A stretch of DNA of 64,000 nt, from the NCBI GenBank assembly GCA_019449635.1, contig JAGRPI010000004.1, forward strand, positions 124,001-188,000, read 5' to 3'. A program made the position numbers and the translations under genes. This document shows positions 14,590 to 53,261 of the stretch, piece after piece (positions within the stretch are counted from its first letter, which is position 1; the number at the start of each line of letters is the position of its first letter). The notes beneath the pieces were generated by a model, which was not told the DNA's origin, did not search any database, and saw nothing but the letters and a program-made list of their open reading frames with translations. The DNA is from Candidatus Ferrigenium bremense (GTDB lineage Bacteria > Pseudomonadota > Gammaproteobacteria > Burkholderiales > Gallionellaceae).

Positions 14590-14780
14590 TGAATAACCTG
14601 CTGCGCGGCCAATCTGATGGAACCACTAGCCATTCCACTAGGTCGCCAAAAAACGGCAACCAAGTGGCTGGTTATGCTGCGTTGCGTGCTCACTCGCGCC
14701 TCGTCTATCTACCAGACATGTCTCGTTGCTCGTTGCGCGGCGTCTTGCATATTGGCCTGCTCGCGACGGTTCTCAGAGGT
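14590..14780. repeat. Family-4 repeat interrupted by the small palindromic element (copy H)
   Basis: The 200-bp space between arnT and the next gene is filled by a family-4-like repeat (ACCTGCTGCGCGG, then GCTGCGTTGCGTGCTC) split by a 60-nt insertion. Short open frames here only read through the repeat and are not genes. Confidence 0.7.
14616..14675 (-). mobile_element. Small palindromic element, copy H (60 nt)
   Basis: Read on the minus strand it starts ATAACCAGCCACTTGG, has the right arm CCTAGTGGAATGGCTAG, and ends GGTTCCATC before AGATT. The stem pair CCACT/AGTGG replaces the CGACT/AGTCG seen in most copies, a compensatory change shared with copy G. Confidence 0.85.
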
Positions 14781-14785
14781 TTCAA

Positions 14786-15157
14786 ATGAGCCTGGTCAGT
14801 TTTATCCTGATCTTCGTCGGCGTGATGCTTAACGCTGCCGCGCAGATACTGATGAAGGCAGGCACCAACGCCGTCGGACATTTTGAATTCAGCATGGAGA
14901 ACGTCCTGCCTATCGGTCTGAAGCTGGCCACCGAGTGGCACATCGTCACCGCGCTGTTCTGTTATGCGTTCAGCGTGATCGTCTGGATCCTCGCGCTGTC
15001 GCGCGTGCCGGTCAGCATCGCTTTTCCGATGCTGTCCATGGCTTATGTGGTGAATGCGGTAGCGGCCTGGTATCTGCTCGGCGAAGCCTTCAATCCGACC
15101 AAGCTGGTCGGCATGGGCGTGATCATCCTGGGTGTGATCATCATTTCGCGGGCTTAA
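14786..15157 (+). CDS. Small multidrug-resistance-type membrane protein, ArnE/ArnF-like flippase subunit
   Basis: This 123-aa protein has four predicted membrane helices: SFILIFVGVMLNAAAQILM, a second at about 45-65, one at about 70-90, and GMGVIILGVIIIS. The pattern is that of the EamA/SMR superfamily. In the arn operons of enterics, ArnE and ArnF form a pair that flips undecaprenyl-phosphate-Ara4N to the periplasmic face. Only one such gene is present here, so it may work as a homodimer. The start at 14786 places it just after the repeat; an upstream in-frame extension is repeat sequence. Confidence 0.8.
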   Translation: MSLVSFILIFVGVMLNAAAQILMKAGTNAVGHFEFSMENVLPIGLKLATEWHIVTALFCYAFSVIVWILALSRVPVSIAFPMLSMAYVVNAVAAWYLLGEAFNPTKLVGMGVIILGVIIISRA

Positions 15158-15165
15158 CCGTTGAC

Positions 15166-15281
15166 TGACATTCCCGCGCAGGCGGGAATCCAGTCGGAAA
15201 ATATTTCTCCGCAACGCGGAGACAAAACCTTGAAGGCATTTTGAATAAAACCGCTGGATTCCGGCTTGCGCCAGAATGACA
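15166..15281. repeat. Inverted repeat of the GACATTCCCGCGCAGGCGGG type
   Basis: Ends ATTCCCGCGCAGGCGGGAAT and CTGGATTCCGGCTTGCGCCA are hairpin-forming and oriented face to face between two arn genes. Related copies lie at 18741-18808, 27059-27126 and 36104-36229. Confidence 0.75.
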
Positions 15282-15300
15282 AACTTTTCGAGACACTTTT

Positions 15301-16449
15301 ATGGGCACTTTCCTTCCTTTCTCCCGTCCGACCATAGACGAAGCGACCATCGCCGCAGTCGCCGAGGTGCTGCGTTCCGGCTGGATCACCAGCGGCCCGA
15401 AGGTGCAGGAATTCGAGAAACAGTTGTCCGCCTATTTCGGTGGGCGTCCGGTGCGCACCTTCAATTCCGGCACCTGCACCATGGAGATCGCGCTGCGCAT
15501 CGCGGGCATCGGGCCGGGCGACGAGGTCATCACCTCTCCGATCTCCTGGGTGGCCACCGCCAACGTGATCCTCGAAGTGGGTGCTGTTCCGGTGTTCGCC
15601 GACATCGACCCGGTCACGCGCAACATCGACCTGGACAAGGTCGAGGCGGCGATCACGCCGCGTACGAAAGCGATCATCCCGGTCTATCTCGCGGGCAAGC
15701 CGGTGGACATGGACCGGCTGTATGCAATAGCCAACAAATACAAGCTGCGCGTGATCGAGGATGCCGCGCAGGCCATCGGCTCGAGCTGGCGGGGCAAGCC
15801 CATTGGTTCATTTGGCGGCTCGTCCGGCGACTTCGTCTCGTTCAGCTTCCAGGCCAACAAGAACATCACTACCTCCGAGGGCGGCTGCCTGGTGCTGAAC
15901 AACGAGGACGAGGCGAAGCTCGCGGAAAAATACCGCCTGCAGGGCGTGACGCGCAGCGGCTGGGACGGCATCGAGGTGGACGTGCTGGGCGGCAAGTACA
16001 ACATGACCGACGTCGCCGCCGCGATCGGCCTGGGGCAATTCGCCCAACTGGACGCCATCACCGCGCAGCGGCGCAAACTGGCAAAACATTATTTTGCGAC
16101 GCTCGGCAGAGACTTCGAGAAGCAGACCGGCGCGCAACTGCCGCCAGAGGATTATGAGTCGACCAACTGGCACCTGTTCCAGGTCGTGCTGCCGGAGCGC
16201 ATCACGCGCGCCGACTTCATGTCGCAGATGAAGGAGCACAACATCGGCGTCGGCTACCACTACGCGCCCATCCACCTGTTCAAGCTGTACCGCGCGCTGG
16301 GCTTCAGGGAAGGCATGTTCCCGATCGCCGAGCGCGTCGGCAAACAGATCGTCTCGCTGCCGATGTTCTACGCGATGAACGAGGCGGATGTGGAGCGGGC
16401 CTGTGAGGCGATGTGGGAAGTGCTGGCAAGCCAGCGTAGGGCGCAATAA
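15301..16449 (+). CDS. arnB: UDP-Ara4O aminotransferase, DegT/DnrJ/EryC1 family
   Basis: ArnB is a PLP enzyme that transfers the amino group from glutamate to UDP-4-keto-pentose, giving UDP-Ara4N. The 382-aa protein starts FLPFSRPTIDEATIAAVAEV. It shows ITSGPKVQEFEKQ, FNSGTCTMEIALR, VIEDAAQAIGSSW and the PLP-lysine region FSFQANKNITTSEGG, close to the FHAIKNIT pattern of the family. It also has GVGYHYAPIHLFKLYR. The position between arnE/F-like and arnC genes supports the specific call over a generic sugar aminotransferase. Confidence 0.92.
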   Translation: MGTFLPFSRPTIDEATIAAVAEVLRSGWITSGPKVQEFEKQLSAYFGGRPVRTFNSGTCTMEIALRIAGIGPGDEVITSPISWVATANVILEVGAVPVFADIDPVTRNIDLDKVEAAITPRTKAIIPVYLAGKPVDMDRLYAIANKYKLRVIEDAAQAIGSSWRGKPIGSFGGSSGDFVSFSFQANKNITTSEGGCLVLNNEDEAKLAEKYRLQGVTRSGWDGIEVDVLGGKYNMTDVAAAIGLGQFAQLDAITAQRRKLAKHYFATLGRDFEKQTGAQLPPEDYESTNWHLFQVVLPERITRADFMSQMKEHNIGVGYHYAPIHLFKLYRALGFREGMFPIAERVGKQIVSLPMFYAMNEADVERACEAMWEVLASQRRAQ

Positions 16450-16543
16450 CCAACGGGCATTGCGCCGTATGGTTGCTACTAAACATCCGGTGCAATGCGC
16501 TACGCCCTTCGACTGCGCTCAGGACATGCTTATTGCACCCTAC
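16436..16543. repeat. Family-7 repeat (GTAGGGCGCAATAACC...TTATTGCACCCTAC)
   Basis: This inverted repeat lies between arnB and arnC. It overlaps the arnB stop codon and carries a family-2 half-copy (CTTCGACTGCGCTCAGGACA) inside it near 16508-16527. Confidence 0.8.
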
Positions 16544-16594
16544 GATATTCCGGATTTCGCTAAACTCCGCCCCATGCGGTAAAATGCTGCCCTT

Positions 16595-17674
16595 ATGAGC
16601 AATCCCCAACTTTCCGTTGTCATCCCCGTCTATAACGAAGAGCAGGGCCTGCAGACCCTGTTCGACCGGCTGTATCCGGCATTGGACAGGCTCGGCATCA
16701 CGTATGAGGTCGTGTTCATCAACGACGGCAGCCGCGACCGCTCCGCTGCGATCCTGCGCGAACAGTTCCAGAAACGTCCCGATGTGACGCGGGTGATCCT
16801 GTTCAACGGCAACTTCGGCCAGCACATGGCGATCATGGCCGGCTTCGAGCATAGCCGTGGGCAGCGTGTGGTGACGCTGGACGCCGACCTGCAGAACCCG
16901 CCGGAGGACACCGGCCTGCTGCTGGCGAAGATGGACGAAGGCTACGATTATGTCGGATCGATCCGCCGGCAGCGCAGCGACAGCTGGTGGCGGCATGCCG
17001 CGTCGCGCGCGATGAACGGGCTGCGCGAACGCATCACGCGCATCAAGATGACCGACCAGGGCTGCATGTTCCGCGCCTACGACCGCCACATCGTCGATGC
17101 GGTCAACAGTTGCAAGGAAGTGAGCACCTTCATCCCGGCGCTGGCCTATACCTTCGCGCGCAACCCCGCCGAGGTGGTGGTCGGGCACGAGGAGCGCACG
17201 GCGGGCGAATCGAAGTATTCACTGTACAGCCTGATCCGCCTGAATTTCGACCTGATGACCGGCTTCTCGCTGGTGCCGCTGCAATGGTTCTCGATGGTGG
17301 GCATGCTGATCTCGGTGTTCTCCGGCCTGTTCTTCGTATTCCTCGCGATACGCCGCCTGGTGGTCGGCCCCGAGGCGGAAGGGCTGTTCACGCTGTTCGC
17401 GCTGATGTTCTTCCTGATCGGCATCGCGCTGTTCGGCATCGGCCTGCTGGGCGAATACATCGGGCGCATCTACCAGCAGGTGCGCCACCGGCCGCGCTAT
17501 CTGGTGGAGGCGGTTTTAGAGAACAGCGGGAAGGGAGAAGAGGGAAGGGGGAAGGGCAGGCGCGCGGCAAAGGTTGCAGGGGAGCCGGATCCTTTTGCCG
17601 GTGAAGCCCGGAAGAAAAAAGCCAAGCCGCTCGACGAGGAGCACCCCTCATTGTTTTCGGATGGTCAAGAATGA
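16595..17674 (+). CDS. arnC: Undecaprenyl-phosphate 4-deoxy-4-formamido-L-arabinose transferase
   Basis: ArnC loads formylated Ara4N onto undecaprenyl phosphate at the inner membrane. The 359-aa protein starts with a GT-A domain (LSVVIPVYNEEQGL, FINDGSRD, TLDADLQNPPED). Two membrane helices follow near residues 230-295 (MLISVFSGLFFVFLAI and LMFFLIGIALFGIGLLGEYI). The last about 50 residues form a charged tail with GKGEEGRGKGRRAAK that is longer than in typical ArnC and close to a repeat-rich stretch. Generic GtrB/DPM1-type glycosyltransferase is the alternative. Confidence 0.9.
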   Translation: MSNPQLSVVIPVYNEEQGLQTLFDRLYPALDRLGITYEVVFINDGSRDRSAAILREQFQKRPDVTRVILFNGNFGQHMAIMAGFEHSRGQRVVTLDADLQNPPEDTGLLLAKMDEGYDYVGSIRRQRSDSWWRHAASRAMNGLRERITRIKMTDQGCMFRAYDRHIVDAVNSCKEVSTFIPALAYTFARNPAEVVVGHEERTAGESKYSLYSLIRLNFDLMTGFSLVPLQWFSMVGMLISVFSGLFFVFLAIRRLVVGPEAEGLFTLFALMFFLIGIALFGIGLLGEYIGRIYQQVRHRPRYLVEAVLENSGKGEEGRGKGRRAAKVAGEPDPFAGEARKKKAKPLDEEHPSLFSDGQE

Positions 17675-17679
17675 GTAAA

Positions 17680-17795
17680 ACCCCCTCTAACTCCCCCCTG
17701 TGCGAGCATCCGCTGCGCGGATTGCCTGCTTGCCCCACTTCAGGGGGAGAACAATGCCCCTCCCCTGTCAAGGGGAGGCTGGGAGGGGTTTTGGG
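17680..17795. repeat. Family-10 repeat (CCCCTCTAACTCCCCC...GGGAGGGG) with an inserted 39-nt palindrome
   Basis: Host CTCCCCCCTGT ... CAGGGGGAGA and CCCCTGTCAAGGGGAGG blocks surround an insert at 17702-17740. The repeat ends just before the formyltransferase start. Related copies lie in mutL at 26894-26966 and 27545-27634. Confidence 0.8.
17702..17740 (+). mobile_element. Second small palindrome, 39 nt, copy 1
   Basis: It contains AGCATCCGCTGCGCGGATTG followed by CCTGCTTGCCCCACTT. It interrupts a host CCCC(C)TGT^CAGGGG. The same 39 nt, with paired changes GCGC to ACAC in the loop, lie at 27571-27609 in mutL in the opposite orientation. Confidence 0.7.
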
Positions 17796-17807
17796 TTCAC
17801 TTTCCGT

Positions 17808-18725: not shown

Positions 18726-18740
18726 GCGCTGTTAGGGTTT

Positions 18741-18808
18741 TGTCATTCCGGCGAAAGCCGGAATCCAGTATATGACAGACTGGACAACGGCCTTCGCCGG
18801 TGTGACGA
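18741..18808. repeat. Inverted repeat of the TCATTCCGGCGAAAGCCGGA type
   Basis: This short palindromic repeat lies between the two arnA-like genes, with an outward half ACGGCCTTCGCCGGTGTGAC. It belongs to the same family as the copies at 15166, 27059 and 36104. Confidence 0.75.
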
Positions 18809-18835
18809 GTGAATTTAATTATCAAAGGAACAGCA

Positions 18836-19880: not shown

Positions 19881-19962
19881 CACCCTTTCCCCGACCCTCC
19901 CCCATCAAGGGGGAGGGGGTAAGTTCCCTCTCCCCTCGCGGGAGAGGGTTAGGGAGAGGGGG
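19881..19962. repeat. Family-1/10 repeat upstream of arnD
   Basis: CCCCATCAAGGGGGAGGGGG is followed by CCCTCTCCCCTCGCGGGAGA and GGGTTAGGGAGAGGG. It fills the whole space between the decarboxylase gene and arnD. Confidence 0.8.
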
Positions 19963-23800: not shown

Positions 23801-23817
23801 GTGCACGGAGCTTTGCA

Positions 23818-23923
23818 TGGCCATTCGACTAAGCTGGCAACAAGCTATGCATAGCCATCTGACCAAGTTGGCAAACTACGCCAACCAAGTCATTGGTTAA
23901 CGCCAGCCAAGTCGCTGGTCAAC
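23818..23923 (-). mobile_element. Degenerate nested pair of small palindromic elements
   Basis: On the minus strand, an outer copy with arms GACCAGCGACTTGGCTGGCG and GCCAGCTTAGTCGAATGGCC contains an inner copy starting TTAACCAATGACTTGG, with the right arm CCAACTTGGTCAGATGGC. Neither ends in the usual CATC, so this looks like an older or divergent nested insertion. Confidence 0.5.
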
Positions 23924-23982: not shown

Positions 23983-24042
23983 ATAACCAGCCACTTGGCT
24001 GCTGTATTTTGGCAGCCTAGTGGAATGGCTAGTAGTTCCATC
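23983..24042 (+). mobile_element. Small palindromic element, copy G (60 nt)
   Basis: It starts ATAACCAGCCACTTGGC, has the loop stem GGCTGCTGTATTTTGGCAGC, and ends GTTCCATC before AGACG. It splits a family-4 repeat after CAACGCCGC. The uninterrupted form CAACGCCGC^AGATGG is visible at 30930-30940. The stem pair is CCACT/AGTGG. Confidence 0.88.
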
Positions 24043-26102: not shown

Positions 26103-26140
26103 TTTAGCCACGGATGGACGCGGATTAACACTGATAAAAA
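26103..26140. repeat. Family-8 half-repeat (TAGCCACGGATGGACGCGGA)
   Basis: This matches the TTAGCCACGGATATACACGG repeat at 61109-61243. It lies just upstream of the miaA start. Confidence 0.65.
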
Positions 26141-26155
26141 CAAGGCACGTAGCAT

Positions 26156-26273
26156 GTAGGGTGCAATAAGCGTAGCGCATTGCACCGGATGTTTTGCGAG
26201 TTGGGCGACAAGTCGCCCATCCCTGCGAACCCCATTTCATTCGGCGCAATGCCCGTTGGTTATTGCGCCCTAC
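26156..26273. repeat. Family-7 repeat between mutL and miaA
   Basis: Ends GTAGGGTGCAATAAGCGTAG and GTTGGTTATTGCGCCCTAC are inverted. Compare 16436-16543 and 53247-53325. Confidence 0.8.
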
Positions 26274-26287: not shown

Positions 26288-28234
26288 TCATTTGCCGCGC
26301 ATGAACATCTTGTCCAGATCGCCCAGCGAAAGTTGGAACCAGGTCGGCCTGCCGTGGTTGCACTGGCCGGAGCGTTCGGTCTGTTCCATCTCGCGCAGCA
26401 GTGCGTTCATTTCGGTGATGCTCAGGATGCGATTGGCGCGCACAGCGCCGTGGCAGGCGAGGGTGGCAAGCAGCTCGTTGCGGCGTTCGGTCAATACACG
26501 GCTTGCGCCGAATTCGCGCAGTTCGTCGACCACATCGCGCGCGGCGGCCTCCGCTTCGGATTGCTTGAGCATCACCGGCATCGCGCGCACCGCCAGCGTG
26601 TTGGGCGATAGCTGGGCGATGTCGAAGCCCAGTGTATGGAGCGCATCTTGTTCGGCATCGACGGTGGCGACTTCGAGCGCGCTGGCGTGGAAGCTTACCG
26701 GGATCAGCAGCGGCTGGGTGGCGAGCTGTTCGGTGTCCAGTGAGGTCTTGAGTCTTTCGTAGACGATGCGTTCGTGCGCGGCGTGCATGTCTACAACGAT
26801 CAGGCCTTGGGTGTTTTGCGCGAGGATGTAGATGCCGGAGAGTTGCGCGAGGGCGAAGCCCAGGGGGTGTTCGTCTTGTGAAGCGTGAAAAGCAACCCCC
26901 CTCGATCCCCCCTTGTCAGGGGGGAAGATAGCTCCTCCACTGACAAGGGGAGGTTGGGAGGGGTTTGCGTTTTCCGTTTGCACTTCCCACAGGCGATATG
27001 CCGCCTGCTGTTGCGCGGCACTCAGCGGCATGTTTTGTTGCTGAAAGCTGGGTGTGCCGTCGTTCCGGCGCAGGCCGGAATACAGTTGATTAAAAGCGCT
27101 GGGTTCCGGCCTGCGCCGGAATGACGAATCTGATTTTGAGGTTTCCTTCACTTCTGTTCCCGCAATCGGTGAACTCAGCGCCTGTTGCAGCGTATGAAAA
27201 ATGAATTGATGGATCCCCTGGCTCTCGCGGAAGCGCACCTCGCTCTTGGCCGGATGCACGTTCACATCCACCTGTTCCGGCGGCAGGTCGAGGAACAGCA
27301 CGAAGGCCGGATGGCGCTGATGGTGCAGGATGTCCTGGTAGGCCTGCCTTAGCGCATGGCTGGCGACCTTGTCGCGCACGAAGCGGCCATTGACGAAGAA
27401 ATATTGCGCATCGCGCGAACTGTGCGAATAGGCGGGCAGCGCGGCCAGCCCCTTCAGTGACAGGTTTGCCGCCTGGCGTTCCACTCCCACGGCGGCATGG
27501 CCGAATTCCTCGCCGAGGATCGCGGAGATGCGATTCAGTGCGCCTGCCCTCACTCCTGTCTCCTCCCCTGAAGTGGGGTAAGCAGGCAATCCGTGTAGCG
27601 GATGCTCGTACAAGGGGAGGCCGGGAGGGGTTGCGGGCAATTGCCAGATGGTCTTGCCGTTGTGTTGCAGCGAGAACGCGACATCGGGGCGCGACAGGGC
27701 GATGCGCTTGAAGGCCTCCTCGCACCAGGCGAATTCGGTGGCTTCGGATTTCAGGAACTTGCGCCGCGCCGGCGTATTGAAATACAACTCGCGCAGTTCC
27801 ACGGTGGTGCCTGGTGTGTGGCTGGCCGGCGCGGGTTCGCCGACGAGCCCGTTGATCGCATCGACCTTCCAGCCGTGCGTCTCATGCGCGGTGCGGCTAA
27901 TCAGGGTCAGATGCGCCACAGCCGCCATGCTGGCCAGCGCCTCGCCGCGAAAGCCCATGCTGGCGACCTTCTGCAGGTCATTCAGCGAGGCGATCTTGCT
28001 GGTGGCGTGGCGCATCAGCGCCAGCGGAAGCTCGTCCTTGGCGATGCCTCTGCCGTTGTCGCGCACGCGTAATAATTTGATGCCGCCGCCTTCCAGTTGC
28101 ACCGCGATGTCGGTCGCACCCGCGTCGAGGCTGTTCTCCAGCAGTTCCTTGAGCGCCGCGGCAGGGCGCTCGATCACCTCGCCGGCGGCGATTTGATTGA
28201 TGAGCAGGTCGGGCAACAGGTGGATGGCAGGCAT
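26288..28234 (-). CDS. mutL: DNA mismatch repair protein MutL
   Basis: MutL is the ATPase that couples mismatch recognition to strand incision. The N-terminal GHKL ATPase is clear: INQIAAGEVIERPAAALKEL, DNGRGI, TSKI, GFRGEAL. The C-terminal region has an endonuclease-type motif DMHAAHERIVYE and the terminal CNHGRP, so it should nick DNA itself, as in organisms lacking MutH. At 648 aa it contains three in-frame repeat insertions: residues about 200-229 (a family-10 repeat with a 39-nt palindrome), 370-391 (an attcc-type repeat) and 422-446 (family 10). The first lies within the N-terminal domain, between PATPPG and ALNRISAILG. I chose ATG 28234 at MPAIHLLPDLLINQIAAG. Confidence 0.96.
   Translation of the reverse strand: MPAIHLLPDLLINQIAAGEVIERPAAALKELLENSLDAGATDIAVQLEGGGIKLLRVRDNGRGIAKDELPLALMRHATSKIASLNDLQKVASMGFRGEALASMAAVAHLTLISRTAHETHGWKVDAINGLVGEPAPASHTPGTTVELRELYFNTPARRKFLKSEATEFAWCEEAFKRIALSRPDVAFSLQHNGKTIWQLPATPPGLPLYEHPLHGLPAYPTSGEETGVRAGALNRISAILGEEFGHAAVGVERQAANLSLKGLAALPAYSHSSRDAQYFFVNGRFVRDKVASHALRQAYQDILHHQRHPAFVLFLDLPPEQVDVNVHPAKSEVRFRESQGIHQFIFHTLQQALSSPIAGTEVKETSKSDSSFRRRPEPSAFNQLYSGLRRNDGTPSFQQQNMPLSAAQQQAAYRLWEVQTENANPSQPPLVSGGAIFPPDKGGSRGVAFHASQDEHPLGFALAQLSGIYILAQNTQGLIVVDMHAAHERIVYERLKTSLDTEQLATQPLLIPVSFHASALEVATVDAEQDALHTLGFDIAQLSPNTLAVRAMPVMLKQSEAEAAARDVVDELREFGASRVLTERRNELLATLACHGAVRANRILSITEMNALLREMEQTERSGQCNHGRPTWFQLSLGDLDKMFMRGK
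26894..26966. repeat. Family-10 repeat inside mutL
   Basis: AACCCCCCTCGATCCCCCCT, the hairpin centre CCCCTTGTCAGGGGG, and ACAAGGGGAGGTTGGGAGGG. It is read through in frame (residues about 422-446). It also gives the uninterrupted form of the host of the 39-nt palindrome. Confidence 0.85.
27059..27126. repeat. Inverted repeat (GTTCCGGCGCAGGCCGGAAT) inside mutL
   Basis: Two facing halves around CAGTTGATTAAAAGC encode part of the MutL linker (residues about 370-391). Confidence 0.85.
27545..27634. repeat. Family-10 repeat with inserted 39-nt palindrome, inside mutL
   Basis: The host TCTCCTCCCCTG ... ACAAGGGGAGGCCGGGAGGG is split by the 39-nt insert at 27571-27609. The frame stays open across host and insert. 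Confidence 0.8.
27571..27609 (-). mobile_element. Second small palindrome, 39 nt, copy 2
   Basis: Reverse complement of copy 1 (17702-17740), with differences confined to four positions. Being 39 nt long, it adds 13 codons to mutL without a frameshift. Confidence 0.7.
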
Positions 28235-32466: not shown

Positions 32467-32586
32467 GATGAAACTACTGGTGAAACAACTAGCCATCTGA
32501 CTAGGCTGTCCAACGACGACAGCCTAGTCATTGGTTATAGCCATTCGACTAGGCTGCCAAAAAACGTCAGCCAAGTCGCTGGTTAT
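32467..32586 (-). mobile_element. Small palindromic element, outer copy (60 nt) interrupted by an inner copy
   Basis: On the minus strand the outer copy starts ATAACCAGCGACTTGGCTGA and runs to GAATGGCT. After the inner copy it continues AGTAGTTTCATC, directly before AGTATTTT. The two outer parts are 48 and 12 nt, exactly 60 in total. Confidence 0.9.
32479..32538 (-). mobile_element. Small palindromic element, inner copy (60 nt) inserted in another copy
   Basis: It starts ATAACCAATGACTAGGCTGT, has a perfect 7-bp loop stem GGCTGTC/GACAGCC, and ends GTTTCACC before AGTAGTTTC of the outer copy. The stem pair is TGACT/AGTCA, another compensatory version. Confidence 0.9.
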
Positions 32587-33456: not shown

Positions 33457-33495
33457 AGTTAGCCAGGGATTTGCACGGATGAATACGGATAAAAC
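33457..33495. repeat. Family-8 half-repeat upstream of the ABC ATPase
   Basis: AGCCAGGGATTTGCACGGAT GAATACGGATAAAAC, related to the repeats at 26103 and 61109. Confidence 0.55.
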
Positions 33496-33560
33496 AGCAC
33501 CTCCCGCCTGACAATCCACCGCGCCGGTACGATTGTTTTCAGTATAGGCTCAATACCATG

Positions 33561-36056
33561 TCAGCGCAAAACTGTATTGTCGTGCGTCCAGTAGCGGCGA
33601 TGCGTCTTGCGGTAGCGCTCCACCTGGATGTCCTGCGCGTCCATTTCGACCAGGATTGCGCCGTCCTCGTCCGAGCGCAACAGTTCCGCACCGCTGTCGG
33701 CGTAGCGTTGCAGCACTTCTTCCCTAGGATGGCCGAAACGGTTGCGGTAGCCGGCGGTGAACACCGCATAGTCCGGCAGTGTGGCGGAGACGAATTCGTA
33801 GCCCGATGAACTCTTGCTGCCGTGATGCGGCACGACCAGCAGGCTGGTGGATAGTTTATCGGCGTGCTGCCTGAGCAGGCGTATTTCGGAATTCTTCTCG
33901 ATGTCCCCCGCCAGCAATACGCTGTGTTTGCCGACGCTGATGCGCAGCACGCAGCTCTGGTCGTTGTCGTGCGGCCTAGTGGTATTGGTGCCATCGCTGC
34001 GTGCGGGATGCAATATCTCGAACTGCACGCCGTCCCAGTTCCAGCTTTCGCCATCGTGACAGCGCCTTGACTCCCCTCTCCCGCTTGCGGGAGAGGGGCT
34101 GGGGGAGAGGGGTACCTGTTGCAGCAGCGGATGCGCGTCAGGCAGCGAAGACATGATCCAGCCGGCCGGCATGGCCTGCATGAGCGAGGCGGTACCGCCG
34201 GTGTGATCGGTGTCGTCGTGGCTGAGGATCAGACCGTCCAGCTCGGCGATGCCGAGCGCGCGCAACGTGGGGGCCAGGATGCGGTTGCCGCTGTCGGCCT
34301 CGCCGGAAAAATCCGGACCGGTGTCATAGAGCAGCGCGTGCTGCCGGGTCTGTGCGGCGACGGCCAGACCCTGTCCGACATCGAAAACGATCAGGCGCAA
34401 CGCGGCTTGCGCGGGAGGTTCCGGTTTGTTCAGGAACATCGGCAGCAGCAACAGTAAGCCCAGCCAGCGTGCCGGGAAGCCGCGCGGCAGCAGGATCCAC
34501 AACACGCCCAGCATCGCGGCGGCGATGCTCCAGGCGGGCGGCGCGTGCTGTGTCCACACCGCTTGCGGCAAGGCGTTCAGCCATTCGAGGAAATGCATCG
34601 CGCCATCCATCGCGATATGCGCCAGCCACAGCGGCGCACCCCCATAGCTGAAATCGGGCGGCAATGCCGCGCCGAGCAGGGCGAGCGGCACGACGACCAG
34701 GCTCACCAGCGGAATCGCGATGGCGTTGGCGAGCGGCGAGACCAGCGAGACTTGCTGGAACAGCCCGAGCAGCAGCGGTGTCAGGCCGATAGCCATCGCC
34801 CATTGCACGTTGGCGTATTCCCTCAACCAGTGACTGGAGCCGATGCGCTGTGCCGTGACATACAGGATGAGTGCCACCGCGCCGAACGACAGCCAGAAGC
34901 CCGCCGAGATCACCGCCCACGGGTCGGGGATCAATACGCCGAGCAGCGCGATGCTCAGGATTTGCCCGGGCGAAAAATTGCGGTTCAGCCACAAGGCGGC
35001 GGCGACCGCACCGACCATGTACACGGTGCGTTGCGCGGGTACGGCGAAGCCGGACAGCAGTGCATAGCCGAGGGCCGTCAGCAACGCGGCCAGTGCGGCG
35101 GCCTTGCGTGCGGGCAGGCGTAGCGTCAGGCGAGCACTGCGCCGCCACAGCCAGTAGGCGATGGCAAAGGCAAGGCTGGCGAGCATGGTGATATGCAGGC
35201 CGGAAATGCTCATCAGGTGATTTACGCCGGTGCGCGTGAAGATCTGCCACTGCGGCGGCGGGATACTGCTCTGGTCGCCGATCGCCAGCGCGCTCAATAC
35301 ACCGGCATAAGGCGCGCCGCCGAGCGTGGCATCGAACTTGTCGCGCACCGCCTCGCGCCAGGTCTCGATGCGGTAGCCGAAACCGTCTGCCAGCTCGTCG
35401 ATGCGCCGGTTATCGCCCTTCGGGTGCCCGGCCAAAAGTTTTTCGGAGTTGTGCACATAACCTATGGCGCGGATGTTGCGCTCCAGTGCCCATGCTTCGA
35501 AATCAAAGCCGTGCGGGTTTGCCGTGCCGTGCGGCTGCTTGAGGCGCAATGTGAGTTGCCAGCGTTCCCCGGCCTTGAGCGCTAGCGGTTCTGCCTTGTC
35601 GTCGAAGTAGGTGCTGAGATAGATGTGCTGCGGCACGCTGGCTTGCGGTACGAAAAACTTTTGTCCGGGCACCCGCGTGACGGTCTGTTCCACATCGAAA
35701 TTGAAGCGCAAGCCGCGCTCGTAATGGCGCGGCAGTTCCGCAACCACGCCGACCGCCTCGATGTCGCGCCCCTGCCATTCATCCGCAAGGTTCACGGCAA
35801 GGCGCTGTTCGGCCTGCCATGCGGCGTGATAGAAACCCGCCCCGCAGGCCAGGGCAGCGAGCAGTAAGAAGCGGAGGGAACGAATGATGAAATACCGAAA
35901 GCTGCGCTCTCTTTCAATGCCCCTCTCCCGCCAGCGGGAGAGGGGATAGAGTAGCGGAAAGCCGAGTAGCAGCCACGCCCACGCAAGATCAGGCAAAGCA
36001 GCCTGCTGTTGCAGCAGCCACACGCCCAGCGCGAAGAAGATGGCGAAGATGACCAT
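33561..36056 (-). CDS. comEC: DNA internalisation / competence protein ComEC
   Basis: ComEC is the inner-membrane channel for single-stranded DNA uptake in natural transformation. The 831-aa protein has the N-terminal DUF4131 domain, the Competence domain with many helices (HLMSISGLHITMLASLAFAIAYW, RTVYMVGAVAAALWLNRNF), and a C-terminal metallo-beta-lactamase domain (LIVFDVGQGLAVAA, LILSHDDTDHTGG, VVPHHGSKSSSG). Family-1 repeats are inserted in frame at residues about 37-46 (35917-35946) and 648-661 (34072-34111), the latter within the beta-lactamase domain. The gene otherwise looks intact. Confidence 0.95.
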   Translation of the reverse strand: MVIFAIFFALGVWLLQQQAALPDLAWAWLLLGFPLLYPLSRWRERGIERERSFRYFIIRSLRFLLLAALACGAGFYHAAWQAEQRLAVNLADEWQGRDIEAVGVVAELPRHYERGLRFNFDVEQTVTRVPGQKFFVPQASVPQHIYLSTYFDDKAEPLALKAGERWQLTLRLKQPHGTANPHGFDFEAWALERNIRAIGYVHNSEKLLAGHPKGDNRRIDELADGFGYRIETWREAVRDKFDATLGGAPYAGVLSALAIGDQSSIPPPQWQIFTRTGVNHLMSISGLHITMLASLAFAIAYWLWRRSARLTLRLPARKAAALAALLTALGYALLSGFAVPAQRTVYMVGAVAAALWLNRNFSPGQILSIALLGVLIPDPWAVISAGFWLSFGAVALILYVTAQRIGSSHWLREYANVQWAMAIGLTPLLLGLFQQVSLVSPLANAIAIPLVSLVVVPLALLGAALPPDFSYGGAPLWLAHIAMDGAMHFLEWLNALPQAVWTQHAPPAWSIAAAMLGVLWILLPRGFPARWLGLLLLLPMFLNKPEPPAQAALRLIVFDVGQGLAVAAQTRQHALLYDTGPDFSGEADSGNRILAPTLRALGIAELDGLILSHDDTDHTGGTASLMQAMPAGWIMSSLPDAHPLLQQVPLSPSPSPASGRGESRRCHDGESWNWDGVQFEILHPARSDGTNTTRPHDNDQSCVLRISVGKHSVLLAGDIEKNSEIRLLRQHADKLSTSLLVVPHHGSKSSSGYEFVSATLPDYAVFTAGYRNRFGHPREEVLQRYADSGAELLRSDEDGAILVEMDAQDIQVERYRKTHRRYWTHDNTVLR
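34072..34111. repeat. Family-1 repeat inside comEC
   Basis: CTCCCCTCTCCCGCTTGCGG followed by GAGAGGGGCTGGGGGAGAGG; encodes [15 protein letters not shown] in the ComEC frame. Nearly the same peptide ([13 protein letters not shown]) begins gph. Confidence 0.9.
35917..35946. repeat. Family-1 repeat core inside comEC
   Basis: GCCCCTCTCCCGCCAGCGGG followed by AGAGGGGATA, in frame near the N-terminus of ComEC. Confidence 0.8.
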
Positions 36057-36103: not shown

Positions 36104-36229
36104 CGTCATACCGGCGAAGTCCGGTATCCAGCAATAAAAGATAGGCCGCGAAGCGGACAAAAACATGAAGTCGCCCCACTTCGTGGGGATTTATTAAACA
36201 ACTGGATACCGGCCTTCGCCGGTATGACG
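36104..36229. repeat. Inverted repeat (GTCATACCGGCGAAGTCCGG ... CGCCGGTATGAC)
   Basis: About 125 bp with facing ends CGTCATACCGGCGAAG and CTTCGCCGGTATGACG. The inner part holds GGCCGCGAAGCGG and CCCCACTTCGTGGGG hairpins. It fills the gap between comEC and the cation efflux gene and may stop transcription. Confidence 0.8.
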
Positions 36230-47304: not shown

Positions 47305-47351
47305 GATGGGGCTGTCGATGGTTGGAACGGGCGTAAGTGTGCCACAAGGCG

Positions 47352-47508
47352 GTGGTTTTGACACGGTGTTGCGAAGCATCCGGTGCGGGAAAAGCCACCT
47401 CATACCCGCTCCCGCAATCGGCTGGCTGCGCTATAACCAGCGACTTGGCGAGCGCAGTTGGCTTGCCTAGTCGAATGGCTAATGGTTTCATCAGTAACGT
47501 GTCGCGGG
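47352..47508. repeat. Family-3 repeat interrupted by copy F of the small element
   Basis: GACACGGTGTTGCGAAGCAT ... CCCGCAATCGGCTGGCTGCG then the insert, then AGTAACGTGTCGCGGG. Compare the uninterrupted copy at 45865. Confidence 0.88.
47433..47492 (+). mobile_element. Small palindromic element, copy F (60 nt)
   Basis: It starts ATAACCAGCGACTTGGC and ends GGTTTCATC directly before AGTAACGTG. Comparison with 45923-45945 (CAATCGGCTGGCTTTGCC^AGTAACGTGTC) defines both ends and shows that no target bases were duplicated. Confidence 0.93.
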
Positions 47509-47549
47509 ATGTGCGGGTGATGACAGCGATGGATGATAAACTCGCCGCC

Positions 47550-48791
47550 ATGAGAAAAGTTCATCTGGTGGTTTGCGATTTATTCCTGCCGGCGGATTTT
47601 GCCGCCGAAGTTTGCGCGGATTTGCGTCTGCCGGCATTGGAAAAGATGCTGGCGCGCGGTGCTTCGACAGGGCAGGGCCCTTCGGCAGGCTCAGGGCGAA
47701 CGGGTGGGGTTGGTGCTTCGCTGGAAAATCATTTGTGCGAATTGTTCAGCGTGCCGTGCGAGGCGGATGCGCCGATTGCACCCATTTCCGCCGCGTTCGA
47801 CGGGTTGGGTGGCGGCTGCGACACGTTACAGGCGCAGCCGGCCGATTGCGGGAGCAGCCGCCAAGCCGCCCTTCCCGCGCCAGAAGGCTCCGCCTCTCCG
47901 TGTCAGGGCGGCTGTTGCTGGCTGCGCGCCGATCCGGTGCATCTGCGGTTGCAACGCCATCAATTGGTGTTGCTGCCGGAGGTGGAGGTCAGCGCAGACG
48001 AGGCGGAGCAATTGTGCGCCGCGCTGAACGAGCACTTCGCCGGGCAGGGCATGGAGTTCTTCGCGCCGCACCCGCAGCGCTGGTATGTGCGGCTCGACCG
48101 GTTGCCGGATATCGAAACCGTGACGTTGTCGCAGGCTGCCGGACGCAATGTGCGCGACCTGCTGCCCGAAGGCGCTGAGTCGGCGCACTGGCATCGGGTA
48201 TTCAACGATATCCAGATGCTGCTGTTCGCGCACCCGGTGAATGAAGCCCGCGAGGCGCGCGGCGCATTGCCGGTCAACAGCCTGTGGCTGTGGGGGGGCG
48301 GCTGCGGGGTGGATGTGCCATTGCAAAAGGCTTACGACTGCGTCAGTTCGGATGAGGTGCTGGCCGAGATGTTTGCCGCGGCTGCGGGGATCCCGTTTGC
48401 GCGGTGGCCGGTGCAATGGAATGACTCCCTCACCCTAGCCCTGATGGAACGACTAGCCATTCGACTAGGCTGCCAAAATACGGCAGCCAAGTCGCTGGTT
48501 ATCTCCCAGAGGGAGAGGGGATTTCCTTCGAACGGCAGGCAATTGCTGGTCTGGACAGGTTTGCGTTCAGCCTTGCGGCGCGGCGATCTGGATGCATGGC
48601 GTGCCGCCTTGCAGGATTTTGAAACAGGTTATGCGCAACCGTTATGGCAGGCGTTGCGCACCGGGAAAATCTCGCAACTGCAGATGGATATCCTGGGCGG
48701 GGATCGCGTCCGGCATCTGCTGTTGAGCCGTGCCGATGCCTGGGCCTTCTGGCGGCGCGCCAGGCCGCTTGCAAAATATTCGATGGTGTAG
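47550..48791 (+). CDS. Conserved hypothetical protein carrying three repeat insertions
   Basis: I cannot name this 413-aa protein with certainty. The start MRKVHLVVCDLFLPADFAAEV, followed by LPALEKMLARG, and later RWYVRLDRLPDIET, HRVFNDIQMLLFAHPVNEAR and LPVNSLWLWGGG resemble an uncharacterised betaproteobacterial family, sometimes labelled phosphoglycerate-mutase-like. Three dispersed repeats lie in frame: residues about 38-51 (family 2), 89-122 (family 3), and 292-324 (family 1 with copy E of the small element). The conserved blocks between them are intact and no stop interrupts the frame. An in-frame extension upstream of 47550 is repeat sequence. Confidence 0.7.
   Translation: MRKVHLVVCDLFLPADFAAEVCADLRLPALEKMLARGASTGQGPSAGSGRTGGVGASLENHLCELFSVPCEADAPIAPISAAFDGLGGGCDTLQAQPADCGSSRQAALPAPEGSASPCQGGCCWLRADPVHLRLQRHQLVLLPEVEVSADEAEQLCAALNEHFAGQGMEFFAPHPQRWYVRLDRLPDIETVTLSQAAGRNVRDLLPEGAESAHWHRVFNDIQMLLFAHPVNEAREARGALPVNSLWLWGGGCGVDVPLQKAYDCVSSDEVLAEMFAAAAGIPFARWPVQWNDSLTLALMERLAIRLGCQNTAAKSLVISQRERGFPSNGRQLLVWTGLRSALRRGDLDAWRAALQDFETGYAQPLWQALRTGKISQLQMDILGGDRVRHLLLSRADAWAFWRRARPLAKYSMV
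47661..47703. repeat. Family-2 repeat in the gene at 47550
   Basis: GCTTCGACAGGGCAGGGCCC followed by TTCGGCAGGCTCAGGGCGAA; encodes STGQGPSAGSGRT. Confidence 0.85.
47815..47930. repeat. Family-3 repeat in the gene at 47550 (reverse orientation)
   Basis: GCGACACGTTACAGGCGCAG, GATTGCGGGAGCAGCCGCC and CTCCGTGTCAGGGCGGCTG match the reverse complement of family 3 without the small element. Confidence 0.75.
48424..48521. repeat. Family-1 repeat interrupted by copy E, inside the gene at 47550
   Basis: Host ACTCCCTCACCCTAGCCCT ... CTCCCAGAGGGAGAGGGGA with the element at 48443-48502. Host and insert are both read through in frame. Confidence 0.82.
48443..48502 (-). mobile_element. Small palindromic element, copy E (60 nt)
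   Basis: On the minus strand it starts ATAACCAGCGACTTGGCTGC, has the loop TATTTT between GGCTGCC and GGCAGCC, and ends CGTTCCATC before AGGGC. Inside the coding frame it reads MERLAIRLGCQNTAAKSLVI. Confidence 0.9.
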
Positions 48792-50354: not shown

Positions 50355-50393
50355 TATCATCGCCGGGATTGAAAATAGCCTTTCTCGATAGCT

Positions 50394-50491
50394 CCCTCGC
50401 CCGCAGGCGGGATAACCAGCGACTTGGCGGCTTCACCGCCTAGTCGAATGGCTAGAGGTTTCATCAGAGGGTTGGGGAGAGGGGGCGGTAG
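50394..50491. repeat. Family-1 repeat interrupted by copy A
   Basis: CTCCCTCGCCCGCAGGCGGG ... AGAGGGTTGGGGAGAGGG with the insert at 50412-50465; fills most of the gap before accA. Confidence 0.85.
50412..50465 (+). mobile_element. Small palindromic element, copy A (54 nt)
   Basis: ATAACCAGCGACTTGGCGGC ... ACCGCCTAGTCGAATGGCTA ... GGTTTCATC before AGAGG. The apical stem is GGCGG/CCGCC, different from the GGCTGCC/GGCAGCC of the 60-nt copies. Confidence 0.9.
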
Positions 50492-50525
50492 AATGACTAC
50501 CGCCATGACAGTTAGGGAATAAAAC

Positions 50526-51491
50526 ATGAAAGTATCATTTCTGGATTTTGAAAGCCCCATCGCCGAACTGGAAGACAAGATCGAGCAACTGCGCTATATG
50601 CAGGACGATTCGGCGCTGGACATCGCGGACGAGATCTCGCGCCTGTCGAAGAAGAGCGAAGCGCTGACCAAGGACATTTATGCCAAGCTCTCGCCCTGGC
50701 AGATATCGCAGGTATCGCGCCACCCGCAACGTCCCTATACGCTGGACTACGTCGAGCACCTGTTCACCGATTTCGAGGAACTGCACGGCGACCGCGCGTT
50801 TGCCGACGACAAGGCCATCGTGGGCGGTCTGGCGCGATTCAACGGCCAGAGCGTGATGGTGATCGGCCACCAGAAGGGCCGCGACACCAGGGAAAAGATC
50901 GCGCGCAACTTCGGCATGCCGCGCCCCGAGGGTTACCGCAAGGCGTTGCGCCTGATGCGCCTGGCGGAAAAGTTCGGCATTCCCATCATGACCTTCATCG
51001 ACACCCCCGGCGCCTACCCCGGCGTGGGCGCGGAAGAACGCGGCCAATCCGAGGCGATCGGGCGCAACCTGTACGAGATGACCGAATTGCGCGTGCCGAT
51101 CATCTGTACCGTGATCGGCGAGGGCGGCTCCGGCGGCGCGCTGGCGATCGCGGTGGGCGATGCGTTGCTGATGCTGCAATACAGCACTTACTCGGTGATC
51201 TCGCCGGAAGGCTGCGCCTCGATTCTGTGGAAGAGCGCAGAAAAAGCGCCGGACGCCGCGGAGACGCTGGGCATCACCGCGACGCGCCTGAAGACGCTGG
51301 GGCTGGTGGACAAGATCATCAGCGAGCCGCTGGGCGGCGCGCACCGAGATTACGCGGTGACCATGCAGAACGTGAAGAAGGCGTTGCAGGACGCGCTCAA
51401 ACAAGTGCAAAACAAGCCGACGGCCAGCTTGCTGCAAGACCGCTTCAACCGCCTGATGAGTTATGGCAAGTTCAAGGAAGTCACGCTGTAA
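50526..51491 (+). CDS. accA: Acetyl-CoA carboxylase carboxyltransferase subunit alpha
   Basis: AccA works with AccD to carboxylate acetyl-CoA for fatty acid synthesis. The 321-aa protein has the family start [42 protein letters not shown], the crotonase-like core [26 protein letters not shown] and [21 protein letters not shown]. tilS follows on the same strand, as in many betaproteobacteria. Confidence 0.97.
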
Positions 51492-51561
51492 GGGCGTATG
51501 GCAATACGCCCTCGTTGAGGCCGTAAGAGCGATGCCATAGGCGTATTGCCATACGCCCCTA
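51490..51561. repeat. Palindromic repeat (AGGGCGTATGGCAATACGCC)
   Basis: The accA-tilS space holds AGGGCGTATGGCAATACGCC and, inverted, GGCGTATTGCCATACGCCC, around CTCGTTGAGGCC. The first in-frame ATG of the tilS frame lies inside it, which argues for a later start. Confidence 0.8.
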
Positions 51562-51590
51562 CGCCAACAAATGTTTGCAAGGGTTGTTTT

Positions 51591-53261
51591 TTGACAAACT
51601 GTGATCTCACTGAACGACTTGCGGCGCGTCTCGCGCCGCTGCTCCCCGCGCACAGCTCCATCCTGATCGGCCTGAGCGGCGGGGTCGATTCCGTCGTGCT
51701 GCTGCACCTGCTGCATCAACTTGCGCCGTGTTTTTCCTGGCGACTTTCCGCATTGCACGTCCATCACGGGATCAGCCCCAACGCCGATGCCTGGGCGGAC
51801 TTCTGCACCGGGCTTTGCGCAACTCTTGCCGTTCCGCTGCATATCGAATATGTGGACATCGCCCCGTTGCGCGAACACGGCATCGAAGCGGCGGCGCGCA
51901 AACTGCGCCATGCGGCATTCGCCAGGCAGGAGGCGGATTTCGTCGCGCTCGCGCACCACGCCGACGACCAGGCCGAGACCCTGCTGCTGCAACTGCTGCG
52001 CGGCGCGGGCGTCAAGGGCGTGGCCGCCATGCCTGTCCTGAGCCGGGTCGAAGGGCCTGTCCTGATAACCAGCGACTTGCCCGCTTGCGGGCTAAGTCGA
52101 ATGGCTAGTAGTTCCGTCAGCCTGTCGAAGCGGCCTTTATTTGCCGAGCGCGCAGATTCAGAGGAGGCTCCTTTTGCCGTTCGCCCTGAGCCTGATGGAA
52201 CTATTAGCCATCCGACTAGGCTGTCAAAAGACACCAGCCAAGTCGTTGGTTATGTCGAAGGGCGCAGGATTGCAGGCTCAGAGCGGGCTTCGACAGGCTC
52301 AGCCCGAACGGAATCGAAAAATATTCGCGCGAGGTCGATCGTGCGTCCGTTGCTGCACTGCTCGCGCCGGGAGATCCTCGACTATGCCACTGCTGAAAAT
52401 CTGCAATGGATCGAAGACGAGAGCAACGCCGACGACAGCTACCCGCGCAACTTCCTGCGCCACCGTGCGCTGCCGCTGCTGGAGCAGAGATTCCCCGCCT
52501 GCCGCGACACCCTGGCGCGCAGCGCGCGGCATTTCGCCGAGGCGAGCGAACTGCTCGATGATCTGGCGCGGCTGGACGCACAACAACCCCCCCCTCCTCT
52601 CAAGGGAGAGGCTTGGCCTGCCCTGAACCTGTCGAAGGGGGGAGAGGGTGCTCTCGAAATATCCCGCCTGAAATCCCTTTCCCAACCGCGTGCCAAAAAT
52701 CTGCTGCGCTGGTTCCTGCACGGCATCGGCGCGCCGATGCCGCAAGCCGTGCAACTCGACGATATGCTGCACCAACTGTGCGATGCGCGGCAGGATGCGG
52801 CGGTGTGTATCGCCTACGGAGATTACGAGGTGCATCGCTATCAGGGCAGGGTGTATGCGCTGCGTGCGCTGGGCGAATTCGACCGAAGTCTGGTGTTGCC
52901 GTGGCAAGGTGAAGCCGAACTGGATTGGCCTGCACTGGGCGCACGCCTGATCTTCGAGCATACGCAGGGCAGGGGCATCAGTCTGACGAAACTGCAGAAC
53001 GCACGCGTGACGCTGCGCCTGCGGCAAGGCGGCGAAACCCTGCGCCCCCACCCGAATGCCGCGACGCGCACCCTGAAGAACCTGCTGCAGGAGCACCATG
53101 TCCCGCCCTGGCGGCGCGAGCGCCTGCCGCTGCTGTATTGCGATGATGATCTGGTAAACATGGCCGGTGTGGCGATTGCTGCGGAGTATCAGGCGAGCGC
53201 TGACGAGGCGGGTATTTCGGTGGGCCTGTTGCCCTGGGCTGCGAACGTAGGGCGTCAATAA
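51591..53261 (+). CDS. tilS: tRNA(Ile)-lysidine synthase with repeat-derived insertions
   Basis: TilS attaches lysine to C34 of tRNA-Ile(CAU) so it reads AUA; it is normally essential. The PP-loop ILIGLSGGVDSVVLLHLLHQ is intact, as are ALHVHHGISPNAD, LAHHADDQAETLLLQLLRGAGVKG and RPLLHCSRREI. The TilS C-terminal domain (GGETLRPHPNAATRTLKNLLQEHHVPPWRR) is present. Between VAAMP and IVRPLL about 100 residues (52034-52336) are built from family-2 repeats carrying copies C and D of the small element. A further insert is at 52588-52650. The stop codon lies in a family-7 repeat. I chose TTG 51591 with AAGGG upstream; 556 aa. Confidence 0.9.
   Translation: MTNCDLTERLAARLAPLLPAHSSILIGLSGGVDSVVLLHLLHQLAPCFSWRLSALHVHHGISPNADAWADFCTGLCATLAVPLHIEYVDIAPLREHGIEAAARKLRHAAFARQEADFVALAHHADDQAETLLLQLLRGAGVKGVAAMPVLSRVEGPVLITSDLPACGLSRMASSSVSLSKRPLFAERADSEEAPFAVRPEPDGTISHPTRLSKDTSQVVGYVEGRRIAGSERASTGSARTESKNIRARSIVRPLLHCSRREILDYATAENLQWIEDESNADDSYPRNFLRHRALPLLEQRFPACRDTLARSARHFAEASELLDDLARLDAQQPPPPLKGEAWPALNLSKGGEGALEISRLKSLSQPRAKNLLRWFLHGIGAPMPQAVQLDDMLHQLCDARQDAAVCIAYGDYEVHRYQGRVYALRALGEFDRSLVLPWQGEAELDWPALGARLIFEHTQGRGISLTKLQNARVTLRLRQGGETLRPHPNAATRTLKNLLQEHHVPPWRRERLPLLYCDDDLVNMAGVAIAAEYQASADEAGISVGLLPWAANVGRQ
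52065..52118 (+). mobile_element. Small palindromic element, copy C (54 nt)
   Basis: ATAACCAGCGACTTGCCCGC / GCGGGCTAAGTCGAATGGCT, ending GTTCCGTC before AGCCTGTCG. It splits a family-2 sequence CCTGTCCTG^AGCCTGTCGAAG and is read through by the tilS frame. Confidence 0.88.
52194..52253 (-). mobile_element. Small palindromic element, copy D (60 nt)
   Basis: On the minus strand ATAACCAACGACTTGGCTGG ... CAGCCTAGTCGGATGGC ... TAGTTCCATC before AGGCTCAGG. It splits a family-2 sequence TTCGAC^AGGCTCAGGGCG and is read through by the tilS frame. Confidence 0.88.
52588..52650. repeat. Hybrid family-1/family-2 repeat inside tilS
   Basis: CCCCCCTCCTCTCAAGGGAG, CCTGCCCTGAACCTGTCGAA then GGGGGGAGAGGG: a family-2 half-copy seems to sit inside a family-1 copy. 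It encodes PPPLKGEAWPALNLSKGGEG. Confidence 0.75.

Follow-up and report, generated by a model that had tools for sequence, protein, structure and literature searches.

Introduction

Short palindromes that occur in many copies are known from several bacterial systems. Repetitive extragenic palindromic (REP) sequences associated with TnpAREP or REP-associated tyrosine transposases (RAYTs) are high-copy bulged hairpins with a CT junction, some of which lie in genes, and they leave no target duplication. The GTAG type has a GTAG (or GTRG) foot at its 5' end and flanks the RAYT gene, and the TnpAREP of E. coli is described, in the passages cited, as cutting at CT beside its own hairpin, with GTAG thought to be the guide (PMC8266576). 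In REPINs, two inverted REPs form the mobile unit. CGTC-tagged REPs, palindromes without a known dedicated transposase, are described with a CGTC-like foot and a stem of 8-9 bp, some of them within genes (PMC3733652). Rickettsia palindromic elements (RPE), for which a length of 100-150 bp is given (PMC3767692), lie in frame in many housekeeping genes and encode a recurring peptide; a study on R. japonica reports that all rickettsial orthologues carry the RPE at one and the same locus. Elements of the IS200/IS605 type and their non-autonomous derivatives insert 3' of a short fixed target without duplication and have two subterminal hairpins. In-frame palindromes have been described from Rickettsia and among some GTAG and CGTC REPs (PMC10969869, PMC3767692, PMC3733652), and the passages cited leave open by which route the protein-coding palindromes of the Rickettsia type enter genes. 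Here, we describe R1, a mobile palindrome with ten copies in a 64,000-nt stretch of the iron-oxidising bacterium Candidatus Ferrigenium bremense (contig JAGRPI010000004.1, positions 124,001 to 188,000; hereafter the window), which inserts exactly 3' of CT, prefers other dispersed repeats as targets and lies in frame in conserved protein genes.

R1 shares with the REPs the high copy number, the bulged hairpin, the CT junction (for R1, by junction sequence alone), the presence of some copies in genes and the lack of target duplication. It differs from the GTAG REPs in its 12-nt leader, which reads GATGRAACNAC instead of starting with a GTAG foot, in its single hairpin as the mobile unit, which also distinguishes it from the REPINs, and in that none of the scanned loci with a gene for a Y1 HUH nuclease was flanked by it on both sides, more distant copies being possible. 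In contrast to the CGTC REPs as described, it lacks a CGTC-like foot and has a longer and interrupted stem. Like the RPE, R1 sits in frame in many housekeeping genes and encodes a recurring peptide, but it is only 54-60 nt long, has other hosts and shows empty alleles and an exact CT rule where RPE are reported at the same locus in each orthologue; the two are set apart here by these descriptions. With IS200/IS605 elements it has in common the insertion 3' of a short fixed target without duplication, and its weak and uneven bias for the lagging-strand template may be a further parallel, but it has one hairpin instead of two, and no parental tnpA with the same ends, as would define a derived miniature inverted-repeat transposable element, was found in 34 Y1 loci. 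R1 is thus different from the known in-frame palindromes in tag, size, hosts and an insertion rule that is backed by empty alleles. Both the mechanism and the tolerance of proteins for such inserts become testable with R1, for which filled and empty sites are available along with an exact junction, nested insertions and about two dozen supported in-frame hosts in environmental bacteria. In addition, it shows a route for new loops into essential enzymes, namely repeats entering repeats that are already present.

Results

R1 is a bulged hairpin with a conserved leader

The window is part of a 2.41-Mb assembly of 42 contigs (genome G000, contig C23; genomes, contigs and loci are designated G, C and L). 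All ten intervals that had been listed as copies of a palindrome with exact ends beside CT/AG contain R1, nine of them complete (57, 60 or 54 nt) and one interrupted. A profile built from the nine complete copies and searched back over the window recovered ten of ten with E <= 7e-14 and also matched a divergent nested relative at about 23815-23920, which was absent from the earlier list. In one orientation, all ten copies start with ATAACC and are directly followed by AG, which corresponds to a preceding CT on the other strand. The original prediction had taken a YATC 'tail' for the end of the element; the conserved leader is located at that end, so the orientation has to be reversed and the element is read as CT/GATGRAACNACT-hairpin-GGTTAT/, where a slash in a sequence marks the junction. 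Four of the copies are found at 14616-14675 (60 nt, plus strand), 23983-24042 (60 nt, minus strand), 11874-11930 (57 nt, minus strand, within a CCCTCGCCCG..CGGG/AGAGGG repeat) and 50412-50465 (54 nt, minus strand, within a CCCGCCTGCGGGCGAGGG repeat); the others are described below.

On its reference strand, intact R1 has the form CT/GATGRAACNACT-AGCCATTCGACTAGGC..loop..GCAGCCAAGTCGCTGGTTAT/, i.e. a single bulged hairpin preceded by a conserved unpaired leader (GATGRAACNACT) and with a 3' end of ..TTAT. The structure was assessed in an alignment of 56 copies, drawn from the window together with 38 chosen loci; this alignment was fitted to the structure and therefore favours it. In this alignment, the four leader columns 8-11 before the stem are C-N-A-C, 94.8% of the paired cells hold standard pairs, and nine of the 17 pairs are changed on both sides, in 89 cells compared to a shuffle mean of 22.2 (standard deviation 3.7). 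Sliding the structure reduced the pairing to 10-43%. Four of five covariation measures exceeded all 500 shuffles, and the number of further pair types was no higher than in the shuffles (20 observed versus 20.5). The leader is conserved even in distant genera in which the stem has shifted from AGCC and GGTT to AAGC and GCTT. A constrained leader together with a covarying stem would be expected if leader plus fold are recognised. The usual lengths of R1, 60 and 54 nt, are multiples of three, and so is the distance from CT to the 3' end in 86 of 97 copies of the own genome and in 105 of 118 copies from loci of the GTDB contigs, the latter picked by the exact repeat pattern.

R1 inserts 3' of CT without duplicating or losing target bases

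Among 113 near-full copies of the own genome, CT is present at the exact model start in 88 and within three bases of it in 102, against a background CT frequency of 5.0%; the proposed excess over chance at the junction is therefore real. The rule of a CT at every copy holds for the ten copies of the window but not genome-wide, as seven of the 113 start with TT instead. The GTDB loci contain 135 near-full copies, with CT at the model start in 89 and within three bases in 128. In order to look for uninterrupted sites, 18+18 flanking bases were joined and an ungapped match was sought in the fetched DNA of the own genome for 102 of the 113 copies; since a CT or TT close to the start and a TAT or CAT end were the selection criteria for these sites, base counts at positions -2 and -1 in this set are given by construction. 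For 67 of the 102 sites (66%) an uninterrupted twin was found elsewhere, compared to 132 of 1500 random CT sites (9%; non-self match). Trimming the join by one base left 15 or 9 twins, by two bases 3 or 2, and by 3, 4, 5, 6 or 8 bases 0-4. Because the twins are found at the exact join and lost on trimming, the insertion is clean: R1 inserts directly after CT, or rarely TT, of the leader-bearing strand, and no target bases are duplicated or lost.

The same follows from a comparison with relatives. The tRNA lysidine synthetase gene tilS (51546-53261, plus strand, an open reading frame (ORF) of 571 codons) carries two in-frame R1 copies within the linker that follows the N-terminal domain, at 52065-52118 (54 nt, minus strand) and 52194-52253 (60 nt, plus strand). 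At the first site, the own sequence GGGCCTGTCCTG/R1/AGCCTGTCGAAGCGGCC corresponds to GGGCCTGTCCTGAGCCCGTCGAAGCGGCC in the empty locus L374; at the second, CGCCCTGAGCCT/R1/GTCGAAGGG corresponds to CGCCCTGAGCTTGTCGAAGGG in L380. In a third pair, filled L377 and empty L381, the flanks are near-identical and the junction is imprecise. The gene itself is present in 39 of 41 genomes, i.e. 25 of the same genus including the own one and 16 others of the order, while G015 and G046 match only via a repeat. The linker was readable in 26 of the 30 fetched loci, where it spans 27 to 120 codons; four of these (own, L377, L391 and L392) contain R1 and 22 do not. Filled and empty sites in relatives, together with the genomic twins, bear out the mobility, the exact insertion at CT/AG and the lack of target duplication that had been proposed.

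R1 prefers other dispersed repeats as targets

The excess of twins at R1 sites over random CT sites shows that R1 prefers other dispersed repeats, many of which are palindromic. Target repeats include CCCTCT/CCCGC..GCGGGAGAGGG, CCTGAGCCT/GTCGAAGG, CCTCCCCT/GACAAGGGGAGG and R1 itself. Self-insertion accounts for seven of the 102 sites, two of the seven lying within a duplicated segment. In the window, a 60-nt R1 copy at 32467-32586 on the plus strand is split by a complete 60-nt copy at 32479-32538 (plus strand), which entered at NACT/AG and leaves the first 12 nt of the outer copy at 32467-32478 and the remaining 48 nt at 32539-32586; an uninterrupted twin of this site was found. Identical nested R1 pairs also occur at L222:7358-7465 and L222:12791-12898, 5,433 bases apart and near a contig end, and the contigs C9, C11 and C29 start inside nested R1 copies (L027-L029).

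A sister form, R2 (e.g. CTTTGCATGGCCATTCGACTAAGC...GTCGCTGGTCAACG), has the hairpin core in common with R1 but other ends; a shared fold with different ends would fit a guide-type choice of the target. R2 units nest in one another's loops and, in G102, also in the loop of a RAYT-associated repeat. The divergent relative in the window (23815-23920, limits approximate, plus strand) is such a nested R2 pair (GCATRGCCATTC..GGTYAACG), and further tandem or nested R2 arrays are present at L269:4630-4783, L247:1455-1556 and L260:2931-3008. In G102, R2-type hairpins at L368:2050-2110 and L368:5732-5793 lie in the repeat loop GCCCGATG/../AATCGGGC, one on each side of the RAYT gene. This pair was considered as a RAYT-flanking cognate and rejected, as each copy sits within a repeat of that locus.

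The strong preference for dispersed repeats and the nested arrays would also be expected if no dedicated enzyme existed and the hairpins were copied at other palindromes through template switching or in the course of repair. We consider such an origin very improbable: in many genomes R1 keeps constant ends and the CT rule, and its unpaired leader is conserved, whereas template switching should give ragged ends.

R1 copies lie in frame in conserved genes

A copy was counted as genic if it lies within an ORF of at least 150 codons that stays open for at least 30 codons on each side of R1. This applies to 55 of 142 distinct copies in the own genome, which give 59 entries because four lie in ORFs on both strands, and to 49 of 154 in the GTDB loci; some of these long ORFs are spurious or in doubtful frames. 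Among the 39 genic sites of the twin set, 32 have an uninterrupted repeat twin, compared to 35 of the 63 other sites. R1 therefore usually entered a repeat that was already present in the gene. Both this preference for other repeats and the in-frame genic copies had been missed by the original prediction.

An in-frame R1 should add 18-20 amino acids to its host protein, as predicted from the reading frames. Frame 0 of the R1 strand gives a peptide like D, then E or G, then TTSHSTRLPKDDSQVAGY; the second frame of this strand is likewise open, and the third contains TGA at CT/GA. With one open frame on the opposite strand (like ITSDLA..SRMASSSI), three of the six frames are open. The longest ORF uses frame 0, the second frame and the opposite strand in 32, 6 and 17 of the 55 copies of the own genome and in 24, 8 and 15 of the 49 GTDB copies, of which two use another frame. 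Three statistics were set aside as evidence of selection or orientation. Lengths that are not multiples of three are rarer among genic copies (2 of 84) than among the others (20 of 141; p = 0.004), a comparison biased because a frame-shifting copy breaks the ORF and is then counted as non-genic. The skew of 56 versus 14 between the two open frames of the R1 strand may reflect repeated insertion in the same repeat phase, and the sense-strand excess (70 of 104 genic copies) equals the 2:1 expectation from two open frames versus one.

In order to assess the hosts, 30 ORFs, chosen mainly by length, were scanned for protein families. In 22 of them the family match spans R1, consists of at least two stretches or leaves domains on both sides; for hosts with two stretches the coordinates are those of the best stretch alone, except for the structure-compared kdsB, lysA and sucA. 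The supported hosts are mfd, sucA, valS, aroA-cmk, recJ, tilS, pgm, cobQ, an acyl-CoA ligase gene, lysA, lpxK (two copies), kdsB, tsaD, rluA, mobA, an rlmN-like and a cusA-like gene, glnD, murD and the genes of an MgtC/DUF4010, an APH-fold and an HD-GYP protein; coaX and lpxH are, judged by eye, probably two more. Six of the 30 were left uncounted, as R1 precedes the domain in coaE, mnmA and a DLH protein, one ORF matches CptA weakly and two ORFs gave no family. In comparisons with solved structures, KdsB, LysA and SucA aligned on both sides of an insert that is absent from the structure chain; in LysA, query residues 327 and 363 align with chain residues 352 and 355. The gene valS with R1 is the sole full-length match in the own genome, all others being partial and far lower-scoring. 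In the window, ORF 47337-48791, for which Pfam gives no match, contains two 60-nt copies: one at 48443-48502 (plus strand), in frame in the second open frame, and one at 47433-47492 (minus strand) near the N-terminal end, where the true start may lie downstream of it. Beside R1, the genes mfd, sucA and an HD-GYP gene (L271, L022 and L260) contain another in-frame repeat, which encodes PxLPLSGEE..PPDKGG-like peptides.

That in-frame copies mostly mark pseudogenes or miscalled ORFs instead of translated inserts is improbable. The doubtful frames among the 55 copies and the six scanned ORFs lacking support could be read in this way, but 22 of the 30 hosts match their family on either side of R1 and contain no stop, no other full-length version of valS exists in the genome, and tilS carries inserts in several species.

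Distribution of R1 in the genus and the order

The proposed search of the genome and its relatives with a covariance model (E <= 0.01) yielded at least 144 R1 matches in the own genome, a lower bound as 150 of 470 candidates were scored, and 0-132 matches per genome within the genus, with R1 present in 24 of the 25 genomes, the own one included. The 16 other genomes of the order had no match to this model. In a broader sample of the order comprising 250 genomes of 120 genera, R1 was detected in 20 genomes and 13 genera. An 18-base piece of the repeat gave at least 116 matching stretches in GTDB contigs; among the matches listed, 103 of 116 are titled Gallionella, Gallionellaceae, Gallionellales, Sideroxydans, Ferrigenium or Nitrosomonadales, and the remaining ones Sulfuricella, Thiobacillus, Accumulibacter, Sulfuricaulis or unplaced Proteobacteria. 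Searches of plasmids and phages with the R1 consensus gave no match, and literature searches on Gallionella gave no paper on such repeats among those listed. Consistent with the earlier statement that the sequence fits no familiar REP family, R1 has neither a GTAG nor a CGTC foot, and an Rfam scan of the window matched a tmRNA only and nothing in R1.

R1 is probably moved in trans by an HUH nuclease

The one-sided fixed dinucleotide, the lack of duplication and the bulged hairpin with its leader suggest single-strand transposition of the Y1 HUH type. Such a mechanism is likely. On balance we favour, with some reserve, that R1 is a non-autonomous mobile palindrome moved in trans by a Y1 HUH nuclease. 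The folded single strand of R1 would be cut at both ends by this nuclease and joined to CT, as in the reactions of TnpAREP or IS200/IS605 transposases. Gene-disrupting insertions would be purged by selection, while in-frame ones in tolerant loops would persist and provide fresh CT targets to later insertions.

The strand distribution agrees with this mechanism in direction. R1 also accompanies RAYT genes in the order, and less clearly within the genus (figures below). On the complete chromosome of G056, GC skew was sampled and changes from positive (up to 1.32 Mb) to negative (from 1.43 Mb); here, R1 lies on the G-rich strand in 18 of 23 full copies (p = 0.011; two partial ones of the 25 matches excluded), and overall this applies to 170 of 290 copies (p = 0.004). 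The bias is weak and uneven across genomes, its direction being that expected for insertion into the lagging-strand template.

With regard to candidate enzymes, the own genome contains two RAYT genes above the NF047646 cut-off (L198 and L005) and four weaker TIRYT-like genes; these Y1 matches are on contigs C3, C8, C33 and C42, and none is in the window, as had been noted before. In three partly overlapping scans of Y1 loci, covering about 1.5 kb on either side of most genes, R1 matches were found at 2 of 34, 5 of 35 and 5 of 20 loci, always on one side and with no chance baseline for these counts; two places are common to the 34- and 35-locus scans and one to the 35- and 20-locus scans. Both matches of the 34-locus scan are beside RAYT genes, and no R1 was present at any IS200-type gene among these 34 loci. 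A cognate transposase adjoining R1 was sought in the Y1 loci read and none was found. The four TIRYT-like genes of the own genome (L001-L004) each have their own long terminal inverted repeats starting with GGGG-type motifs, in agreement with descriptions of TIRYTs.

Several results weigh against the movement of R1 by a Y1 nuclease. None of the Y1 genes examined could be identified as the enzyme moving R1, none of the scanned Y1 loci has R1 on both sides, and the RAYT genes read carry repeats of their own: GTAGGTCGGGTTAGCG-type at L005, GTAGGGCGCAATAACC-type at L198 and GTAGCCCGCATGAAGCG-type at L208 (G020), with other repeats also beside L184 (G043), L187 (G050), L280 (G007), L282 (G050), L284 (G012) and L286 (G009). 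The genome G022, which is 83% complete, has 108 R1 matches and no Y1 match, while G023 has Y1 genes and no R1 match. R1 lacks GTAG. No strand bias is seen in G043 (15 of 29 copies; one further full match lies on an unsampled contig and 13 partial ones were excluded), and neither the own genome (62 of 107 copies when local skew is used, 52 of 92 on a contig basis) nor the GTDB loci (75 of 131) are significant alone. The translation of the inserts is a prediction from sequence. The idea of a RAYT-like HUH nuclease in the original prediction is therefore compatible with the CT cut of TnpAREP, the bulged hairpin and the weak strand bias, but the search that it proposed, for a Y1 gene flanked by the palindrome, gave none with R1 on both sides in the loci scanned.

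A more specific alternative is that a known RAYT of these genomes spreads R1 by acting on a repeat other than its main one. In the order sample, a RAYT gene is present in 10 of 20 R1-positive and 43 of 230 R1-negative genomes (p = 0.003), a statistic that ignores ancestry and that depends on the E-value limit because the R1-positive G111 and G239 just miss it; the CT rule and the bulged hairpin would fit as well. Within the 25 genomes of the genus, the association of R1 is p = 0.07 with RAYT and p = 0.20 with TIRYT-type genes, classes that were assigned by hand and are uncertain for G008 and G017. Moreover, R1 has no GTAG foot, G064 and G020 have RAYTs alone (over or near the cut-off) and G193 weaker TIRYT-like matches alone. 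One repeat family of its own is reported for each tnpAREP (PMC6006769), which argues against L005, L198 and L208 as the enzymes of R1. We therefore regard this alternative as possible but doubtful.

Slightly less credible still is a non-Y1 recombinase, i.e. another enzyme or a tyrosine recombinase acting on folded single strands as in integrons. The lack of a linked Y1 gene, the R1-rich G022 without a Y1 match and the weakness of the strand bias would all be accommodated by it. The one-sided dinucleotide and the unlike ends (CT/ and TTAT/) would be unexpected for an exchange between identical cores, and no integron core sites were seen by eye at the ends of R1, integrases not having been searched for.

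Beyond the preferred movement by a Y1 nuclease in trans, it is tempting, if speculative and on present evidence rather unlikely, to regard the single-hairpin R1 as a palindromic transposon that codes for protein, is found outside Rickettsia, follows a defined insertion rule and is moved by an enzyme other than the Y1 proteins examined. Its length divisible by three and its open frames would make essential genes a habitat, in which it would colonise loops that older in-frame repeats had already opened, and linkers like the one in TilS would grow by stacked insertions.

Other dispersed repeats of the window

Palindromes of the type CCCTCTCCCGC..GCGGGAGAGGG, a frequent target of R1, are present in the window at 2940-2979, 19923-19962, 34072-34111 and 35919-35958, and similar repeats also lie in frame within genes, e.g. 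in valS (L260). Repeats resembling CGTC-tagged REPs (CGTCATACCGGCGAAGGCCGGTATCCAGT) occur at 18779-18807, 27098-27126 and 36201-36229; elsewhere, R1 is inserted in such CGTC-like repeats, e.g. at L222:2221. A GTAG-type repeat, GTAGGGCGCAATAACC..GGGCATTGCGCC, is found at 16435-16469, 26238-26272 and 53291-53325 and also flanks the RAYT gene of the own genome on contig C42 (L198). A further dispersed repeat, TTAGCCACGGATNNACRCGGATTAACACTGAT, is located at 26104-26142, 33459-33497 and 61110-61148.

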